DNA from: [Phialemoniopsis] sp. UDSM-2020
Lineage: Eukaryota; Ascomycota; Sordariomycetes; Thyridiales; Thyridiaceae
Assembly: GCA_018873225.1 (NCBI GenBank)
Contig: JAEILZ010000005.1
Location: 3,472,001-3,536,000 of the forward strand
DNA length: 64,000 nt
Direction of reading: 5' to 3'
Positions 28,071 to 29,329 of the stretch are shown here, piece after piece. Position 1 is the first letter of the stretch. Every line of letters starts with the position of its first letter. The notes below the pieces were generated by a model. It saw nothing but the letters and a program-made list of their open reading frames with translations. It searched no databases and was not told the DNA's origin. Position numbers and translations under genes: made by a program.

Positions 28071-28869
28071 GCTGTGGGAGTCAAGAGTGCGGGGATGGAA
28101 GTTGGGGCTAGTTTGCTTGATTGATGCGGGTGAATGGGGTCCGTCTCCCGCTTGATTTGACGTTTGATGAGTGGAGGGTAGCTTGGAGATCCTCAGCACC
28201 GTGGACGAGAACTTGTGGTCACTTTGAAGGCAGGTCTTGACCGCCAGTAAACGTCGGGTATGGTCCAGTCTCCATGTCTGCGTCCGGCAGGTCGAGTGTC
28301 AACGGGAGAGATCCGGCCGTCTCCTGTGATTGGAATCCATATCGAATTGACACCTATCTGGTGAAGAGATATAAAAAAATATCACGGCCTGTCATGTTTG
28401 TCATTACATGCGGGGAAACGAAGATCAGGGCCCCCTTTGGAGCCTGGGGAGCAACTAACACCTGCCTTAGCGCTGCTATGTGGCATTAGCTTGGCGATGA
28501 ATTTAGCGACGAAGTAGCCGACGGAATGGATGATTGGCTAGCTCCGGATCCGACAACGGGCAGCCAACGGACCGGCCTGTCGACCATTTTAGCTTGCTTT
28601 GGCATGCAGTAGCAGCAGCAGCATATGTCACATCCCTTGTCAGGTAAAGCTTCTTGTGCATGAGGCATGACAAGCTTTGGAGATGCTTTTCCAGATTTAC
28701 GTCCGTCGAGATAAAGACGTGCATTGGACTTATCTACGCAAAAGGAGGAAAAGACACATCGAATGCACCAAAGCCGTCTAACAGGCCCACCCTGCATTGA
28801 CACAGACCTAATGAAGGCCCTCTAGCCACCAGCAGTGTAAGTAAGGACAAAAATAATTGAAAAAGTGTA
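28071..28869. other. Intergenic, DAO promoter side
   Basis: About 0.8 kb between the DAO start and the tRNA terminator. Minus-strand frames at 28486-28803 are open but not convincing. A short run of AGC triplets occurs at about 28611-28622. Confidence 0.4.
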
Positions 28870-28880
28870 AAAAAAAAAAA
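28870..28880 (-). terminator. Pol III oligo-T terminator of tRNA-Lys
   Basis: Eleven consecutive T on the minus strand, 42 nt past the tRNA 3' end; a run of four or more T is a sufficient RNA polymerase III stop. Confidence 0.7.
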
Positions 28881-28958
28881 TAGTGGTTGAATTCCAGAGT
28901 CAATCTGGAGTACCGGGAATTGAGCCCGATACGGGGGTCGAACCCGTAACCTTAAGAT

Positions 28959-29016
28959 GGATCTCTAGTGCTTTCTAGTCTCAAGAATTTTGAGATTTCT
29001 TGATCCTAAGCGCTTG
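28959..29016 (-). other. Canonical tRNA intron at position 37/38
   Basis: 58-nt intron one base after the CTT anticodon, the place cut by the eukaryotic tRNA splicing endonuclease. Confidence 0.85.
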
Positions 29017-29035
29017 TAAGAGTCTTACGCTCTAC

Positions 29036-29094
29036 CTGCATCTGGTCGTTAGCATGATGGGTATCATGGTGATGGATGCAAGGGGAATACGGAC
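29036..29094 (-). other. 59-nt ectopic insert in the tRNA-Lys D-loop, resembling a spliceosomal intron
   Basis: The insert starts GTCCGT, carries TGCTAAC, a good fungal branch-site match, 11 nt before its end, and ends GATGCAG. Excision at GT and AG restores AATCG-GTAGAGC exactly. It also holds two nested inverted repeats, TGCATC/GATGCA and CATGAT/ATCATG. A one-base slide of both borders is possible because a G flanks each side. How it would be removed from a Pol III transcript is unknown. Confidence 0.75.
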
Positions 29095-29329
29095 CGATTG
29101 AGCTAACCGGGCTGTGCTGGTTGACGCCGAGCTTCTTATTTGTGTCTATCCAGCAAGTAGCTGTGGGCAGGGGCTCCGCTTGAGCCCTAGCCCTGTGTGG
29201 ATGAGTGGACGTGGACAGATGTGGATTCGTGGATGTGGATGGTCACACAGCGAGCAAGCGTCACAGGTCACACCATATGCATTGGAAGTGGTGGTTTGTC
29301 AAGATGATTAAGTCTATGCTCGTTGTTCA

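Follow-up and report, generated by a model that had tools for sequence, protein, structure and literature searches.

Candidate spliceosomal introns in tRNA-Lys(CUU) and other Pol III genes of an ascomycete fungus

Introduction

Introns of the mRNA type are known from the U6 snRNA genes of fission yeast, Rhodosporidium and other fungi, and U6 is a Pol III transcript. For tRNA genes, a different picture has been drawn. According to the accessible sections of PMC3978253, PMC4090602 and PMC6614914, the introns of nuclear tRNA genes are the task of the tRNA endonuclease and are located, with rare exceptions, at position 37/38, and the accessible text of PMC6614914 sets tRNA splicing apart from the spliceosome. 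Noncanonical introns are treated for archaea in the available part of the tRNAscan-SE 2.0 paper (PMC8450103). Among the papers listed from the open-access literature without preprints, none describes tRNA genes with spliceosomal introns, as judged from titles and the openings of abstracts.

Here, we describe a tRNA-Lys(CUU) gene that is interrupted in its D-loop by an insert which is very probably a U2-type spliceosomal intron, residing in a Pol III-transcribed gene and removed by the spliceosome; this view is based on its sequence and on comparison with other genes of the same genome. The gene is located in the window, i.e. the whole stretch of 64,000 nucleotides that was analysed, and was followed through a genome of 44.18 Mb on 11 contigs. 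The pattern reaches beyond the preliminary description of this DNA, because it includes five further tRNA isotypes and U6.

Anatomy and detection of the tRNA-Lys(CUU) gene

The gene occupies positions 28923-29112 on the minus strand, is 190 nt long in its unspliced form and consists of three exons and two inserts, one of 59 nt between G18 and G19 and one of 58 nt at 37/38, after A37 (Table 1). The joined exons form a perfect 73-nt tRNA-Lys(CTT) and display the complete set of features by which a functional tRNA-Lys(CUU) gene is recognized: a complete cloverleaf with all stems, the anticodon CUU, A and B boxes, and a T-run downstream. The D-loop insert is located between both internal promoter boxes, right where the A box ends on its 3' side. 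The insert's own first G substitutes for G19, and the A box is therefore whole in the DNA.

Table 1. Features of the window gene and inserts at ectopic sites of other tRNA genes
Feature	Position or site	Strand	Length	Basis
tRNA-Lys(CUU) exon 1, nucleotides 1-18	29095..29112	-		sequence; covariance model match
D-loop insert of spliceosomal type, GTCCGT...TGCTAACGACCAGATGCAG, with CTAAC, ends CAG	29036..29094 (18/19)	-	59 nt	sequence; site filled in 5/5 genes found
5' splice site GTCCGT, weaker than GTAAGC/GTATGT in three paralogues	29089..29094	-		sequence
Branch-point motif CTAAC, 13 nt between its A and the intron end	29048..29052	-		sequence
3' splice site CAG	29036..29038	-		sequence
Exon 2, nucleotides 19-37, with anticodon CUU	29017..29035	-		sequence
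Canonical 37/38 tRNA intron without GT-AG signature	28959..29016	-	58 nt	sequence
Exon 3, nucleotides 38-73	28923..28958	-		sequence
A box TAGCTCAATCGG, intact in the DNA	29094..29105	-		sequence; box positions 8-19 per accessible sections of PMC3978253
B box GGTTCGACCCC, T arm	28934..28944	-		sequence; box positions 52-62 per accessible sections of PMC3978253
Trailer hairpin; trailer pairs with nucleotides 64-71 and competes with the acceptor stem	28910..28932	-		folding prediction, comparison
Second trailer hairpin TCCAGATTGACTCTGGA	28893..28909	-		sequence, comparison
Pol III terminator, 12 T	28869..28880	-		sequence
iMet insert	33/34		51 nt	
Gln(CUG) insert	34/35		59 nt	
Ser(GCU) insert	34/35		48 nt	
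Leu(CAG) insert	19/20		56 nt	
Two Pro(AGG) inserts	45/46		54 and 56 nt	

ARAGORN did not match the unspliced window gene and identified the spliced form as tRNA-Lys(ctt), and the Rfam tRNA model gave no match to the unspliced gene. A covariance model of seven tRNAs from the same genome, which include one other tRNA-Lys(CTT) copy, matched exactly 28923-29112 with 54.6 bits and assigned the surplus letters to the D-loop and anticodon loop. With a second covariance model that contained no lysine tRNAs, only the T arm was matched (E 0.3). The combined results of ARAGORN, Rfam and the covariance models therefore reveal that the preliminary description, which had claimed a 59-nt D-loop insert, a 58-nt insert at 37/38, a flawless 73-nt tRNA-Lys, A and B boxes and a T-run, was exact to the base. 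Rfam matches to mir-1549, SNORD42 and CRISPR-DR17 near the gene were below the gathering score and were taken as chance. Of the five Lys(CUU) genes of the genome in their unspliced form, ARAGORN with introns allowed still failed to see three and named the other two Ile and Tyr; the unspliced iMet, Gln, Ser and Leu genes and one tested Pro gene were also misnamed.

The tRNA-Lys(CUU) gene family

The genome contains five copies of the gene's initial 20 nt, which are followed in each case by an insert and never by the remainder of the tRNA. In all five tRNA-Lys(CUU) genes that were found, the same D-loop site is occupied by an insert of 54-59 nt. Searching for the second exon with a gap-free pattern produced nine matches, which correspond to the same five genes and to four places without tRNA context, as judged by eye. 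A pattern spanning the anticodon and the B box, with at most 33 nt in between, identified the two Lys(CUU) copies without a 37/38 intron. In eight of 13 matches to the loose pattern CTRAC..YAGGTARRGC, the B box was absent downstream. A DNA query with the spliced gene returned no uninterrupted Lys(CUU) copy among four candidates. A misassembly is ruled out by the presence of five loci on three contigs, with inserts that differ from each other. Additional lysine tRNA sequence is present in a palindromic fragment (L005, G000:C5:1106450-1106492 and flanks), in which a tRNA-Lys T arm is accompanied by the trailer hairpin on both sides and by a T-run; this fragment looks like a rearranged remnant.

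The exons of the Lys(CUU) copies are 90-100% identical, and the inserts 28-80%. All five inserts maintain the GT start, the CTAAC motif, a distance of 11-15 nt after its A, and a CAG or TAG end. When the 21 pairs of the cloverleaf were compared across the five genes, 105 of 105 cells were paired, and both sides had changed in six cells, which belong to three pairs of the anticodon and T stems. Because pairing is complete and includes these both-side changes, the Lys(CUU) exons are considered to be tRNAs under selection. The codon read by tRNA-Lys(CUU) is AAG. In 12 stretches of the window with Pfam matches, 92 of 122 lysine codons are AAG, and this tRNA is therefore presumably needed. AAG may also be within reach of Lys(UUU) (L076) through wobble, and AAG decoding would therefore not necessarily depend on splicing.

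Ectopic inserts in other tRNA genes

Inserts of like make are present in 11 of 65 nuclear tRNA genes read and cover six isotypes (Table 1); the 65 genes are a sample from an incomplete census. They were read from ARAGORN output or by eye and comprise 47 Rfam-model matches and 18 genes from further searches. The Rfam-model search produced 62 matches, including 15 on the 28.9-kb mitochondrial contig, with 63 of 930 candidates scored, and the further tRNA search behind the census had 40 of 53 candidates scored. Queries with further tRNA sequences retrieved Glu and Pro genes in one round and nothing in another, and this incomplete census contains no Gly, Trp, Phe, Tyr or elongator Met genes. A search for the exon-intron junction in viral and genome contig collections yielded two matches each, and no insert-bearing tRNA gene was recognized among them by eye.

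Both kinds of intron occur together in at least one gene each of Lys, Leu, Pro and Ser, four of the six isotypes. In a Ser(GCU) gene (L083, G000:C10:2992201-2992353), the spliceosomal-type intron at 34/35 and the canonical intron at 37/38 are only three nucleotides apart, and two machines would therefore probably have to act in order. The Pro(AGG) genes are arranged as inverted pairs (L098, G000:C4:3138550-3139990; L097, C8:2737300-2738050), and one of the inserts on C4 has the unusual 3' end AAG. Two iMet genes are located 155 bp apart (L105, G000:C8:1427900-1428400), one of them intact and the other with a spliceosomal-type intron at 33/34.

Interrupted genes of this kind could also be pseudogenes or decaying duplicates in which short insertions have gathered. 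iMet, Gln(CUG), Leu(CAG) and Ser(GCU) are also represented by intact-looking copies that lack an ectopic insert, and the interrupted copies of these isotypes could therefore be decaying. In addition, short insertions in the D or T arm of eukaryotic tRNA genes supposedly mark pseudogenes, as stated in the accessible sections of PMC4090602. Of the Pro(AGG) genes, however, the two copies without insert on C8 have a T loop that is short by one and two letters, whereas the T loop is whole in the two interrupted copies on C4. Likewise, the interrupted iMet gene maintains its acceptor stem through G7-C66 in place of the A7-U66 of its neighbour, which represents a compensated change. The preliminary description had used the perfect stems as an argument against a pseudogene, and this argument extends to the Lys(CUU) family, where the insert is present in all five genes found, the stems co-vary, and the prevalence of AAG makes the tRNA presumably necessary. 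For this family, the explanation was rejected, since all 21 pairs are formed in each of the five genes and no uninterrupted replacement was found in searches that were not exhaustive. For the interrupted genes in general, decay appears very improbable to us.

Spliceosomal signature of the ectopic inserts

All 11 ectopic tRNA inserts start with GT and end with AG, as U2-type introns do, and they contain a U2-type branch motif, CTAAC in ten cases and CTAAT in one (iMet), the A of which is followed by 10-15 nt. For an estimate of chance, the letters of each insert were shuffled, any placement yielding the same tRNA was allowed, and GT-AG and the branch-point motif were required. The signature appeared in 0.03-0.24% of the shuffles per gene, and in 0.09% for the window insert. 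The GT start, the CAG end and the branch motif near the 3' end, which had been noticed in the window insert alone, are thus confirmed and recur in 11 genes. The extended 5' splice site GTRNGT is fully matched in five of the 11 inserts (GTAAGT, GTATGT, GTGAGT and twice GTACGT) and nearly matched in four (three times GTAAGC, and GTAGGC), while two, GTCCGT in the window copy and GTTCGT in the C1 copy, deviate from the purine at +3, and the site of the window copy is among the weakest in this set.

With 48-59 nt, the ectopic inserts are similar in length to mRNA introns of this genome. Three introns of protein genes were placed by spliced alignment within the window; they are 53, 55 and 70 nt long and contain the motifs CTGAC, TTAAC and CTGAC, with 12, 12 and 21 nt after the A. 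A fourth intron of 142 nt, suggested by the aligner where the ICL gene ends, was regarded as spurious and left out. Among named relatives, the best-scoring one for the isocitrate lyase of the window, from Mytilinidion resinicola, is 54% identical; the four top matches show 76-83% identity, and the MFS transporter shows 67% identity to Fusarium decemcellulare. For cytochrome b of the mitochondrial contig, the closest named records among the 120 listed are from Colletotrichum (88%) and other Sordariomycetes, and a further protein is 94% identical. We regard the fungus as a filamentous ascomycete that is poorly sampled, and probably as a sordariomycete. The 37/38 introns of the same genome are 11-58 nt long (the Pro ones measured one nucleotide short). 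GT..AG boundaries were observed in none of 20 of them as first placed and in none of 21 in any equivalent placement, and the YTRAY motif by itself occurs in four of 21.

In the preliminary description, the D-loop insert was read either as a spliceosomal-like intron residing in a gene of Pol III or as an additional site of the tRNA endonuclease. In the latter case, the tRNA splicing endonuclease would cut the insert as a tRNA-type intron at an ectopic position, and the GT-AG appearance of the insert would be coincidental. Endonuclease-type introns at ectopic sites do exist in archaea, Cyanidioschyzon merolae and nucleomorphs (accessible sections of PMC4090602 and PMC3978253), and the window gene itself also carries an ordinary 37/38 intron. 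The 11 ectopic junctions, however, are located at 18/19, 19/20, 33/34, 34/35 and 45/46 and not at 37/38, and a strict bulge-helix-bulge motif was detected at none of them in any equivalent placement. Even at the best junctions, the central helix reached at most three of four pairs, and where it did so, the outer helix reached at most two of three. Some ectopic introns of Guillardia theta have no defined bulge-helix-bulge either, according to the accessible part of PMC3978253, and the absence of the motif therefore does not exclude the endonuclease. GT-AG boundaries with a branch motif are present in 11 of 11 ectopic inserts as opposed to 0 of 21 canonical introns. An endonuclease origin is accordingly disfavoured and would be a great surprise, and the spliceosomal reading is strongly favoured.

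Several features nonetheless count against a spliceosomal reading, namely the deviations at +3 in the window and C1 copies, the AAG end of one Pro insert, the CTAAT of iMet, the YTRAY motif in four canonical introns and the third intron of U6, which has no YTRAY branch motif in range. Structure inside the inserts does not appear to be conserved. Nine of the 11 inserts were folded, and the nested stems that had been reported for the window insert are borne out for this copy, which alone was clearly better than its own shuffles (z -2.7), but not for the eight others (z -1.3 to +1.1).

Trailer hairpins of the tRNA-Lys(CUU) genes

In the Lys(CUU) transcripts, a trailer of 22-42 nt precedes the T-run. 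The trailer is complementary to nucleotides 65-71 in all five genes and to nucleotides 64-71 in four, and this pairing is kept through variation from C65-G to U-A and from U67-A to U-G. A second trailer hairpin, TCCAGA..TCTGGA, is present in four of the five genes (window 28893-28932 and the four paralogues compared). Taken together, 63 of 63 cells of the trailer hairpins are paired, with two cells changed on both sides; as 44 of 500 shuffles do equally well, this covariation is weak. According to folding predictions, the trailer hairpin is favoured over the acceptor stem in four copies, both before and after splicing, while the cloverleaf wins in the fifth, the C7 copy. Through the hairpin, the precursor might be kept open until the spliceosome can act, but the predicted advantage of the hairpin even after splicing speaks against a simple switch.

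These trailers also bear on a further explanation, in which the spliceosome excises the inserts only rarely and the unspliced transcripts serve as regulatory RNAs, with the trailer hairpins as part of them. The predicted success of the trailer over the acceptor stem, before as well as after splicing, would fit such a role. Yet conservation rests on the exons as a complete tRNA and not on the inserts, and no uninterrupted Lys(CUU) gene was found that could act as a substitute. We regard regulatory RNAs of this kind as extremely unlikely.

A U6 gene with GT-AG introns

The U6 gene L108 (G000:C9:709155-709246 region), which we take to match the fission yeast U6 core, contains three GT-AG introns of 55, 58 and 57 nt, and the exons between them are only 13 and 9 nt long. 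In the third intron, no YTRAY branch motif was found in range. This intron contains the B-box-like sequence GTTCGATTCC. Two further U6-like copies, L106 and L107, have no interruption, but their sequences have diverged. Because U6 is made by Pol III and carries GT-AG introns here, Pol III transcripts of this fungus seem to reach the spliceosome.

A proposed route of tRNA-Lys(CUU) maturation

The 11 ectopic inserts are best read as spliceosomal introns of the U2 type that reside in tRNA genes transcribed by Pol III and are removed by the spliceosome, with the tRNA endonuclease handling the introns at 37/38, and this suggests that some tRNAs of this fungus need the spliceosome besides the tRNA-splicing enzyme. 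For the window gene, we infer transcription by Pol III, excision by the spliceosome, the order of the steps, and a need for splicing in the supply of tRNA-Lys(CUU). Pol III would transcribe the gene from its internal A and B boxes as far as the T-run. In the nucleus, the spliceosome would then take out the 59 nt by using the 5' GU, the branch A in CUAAC and the 3' AG, and this removal would restore a normal D arm. The tRNA endonuclease and the ligase would next excise the other intron, that at 37/38, in their usual manner. This step is placed second because a subunit of the tRNA endonuclease probably contacts the D arm, as stated in the accessible sections of PMC3978253, and a normal D arm would exist only after the spliceosome has acted.

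A more far-reaching possibility, to which we give less than even weight, is that the spliceosome has become an obligatory machine of tRNA maturation in this lineage, for every Lys(CUU), perhaps for Pro(AGG) and partly for several other isotypes. The Lys(CUU) trailers, by taking the acceptor strand, would keep the transcript unfolded until the spliceosome acts, and translation would be wired to the spliceosome via tRNA.

If the spliceosomal reading is true, the spliceosome is able to process tRNA precursors, and introns can be gained in structured Pol III genes of 73 nt while the internal promoter is kept. Interrupted genes of this kind are missed or misnamed by a standard tRNA finder. Moreover, they could provide a handle on how spliceosome activity feeds into the decoding of the commoner lysine codon.

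Comparison with known systems

The U6 introns of fungi resemble the case described here, in that the spliceosome presumably removes a short GT-AG intron from a transcript of Pol III. U6, however, is itself a spliceosomal RNA, whereas the host is a tRNA here. In the Lys(CUU) gene, in addition, the intron is located between both internal promoter boxes, and several tRNA transcripts of this fungus would also involve a second splicing machine.

The canonical 37/38 introns, which are processed by the Sen endonuclease and the Trl1 ligase, share with the D-loop insert their location in a nuclear tRNA gene, and one of them is present in the same gene. In contrast to these, the D-loop insert is located at 18/19 and has GT-AG boundaries and a branch motif. 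Ectopic introns in the D arm, the anticodon loop and the variable region, with several per gene, are described for Crenarchaeota, Cyanidioschyzon merolae and the Guillardia theta nucleomorph in the accessible sections of PMC4090602 and PMC3978253. Those introns are associated, in the same sections, with a bulge-helix-bulge or an undefined motif and measure 3-24 nt in the nucleomorph, whereas the inserts described here are 48-59 nt long and carry spliceosomal signals.
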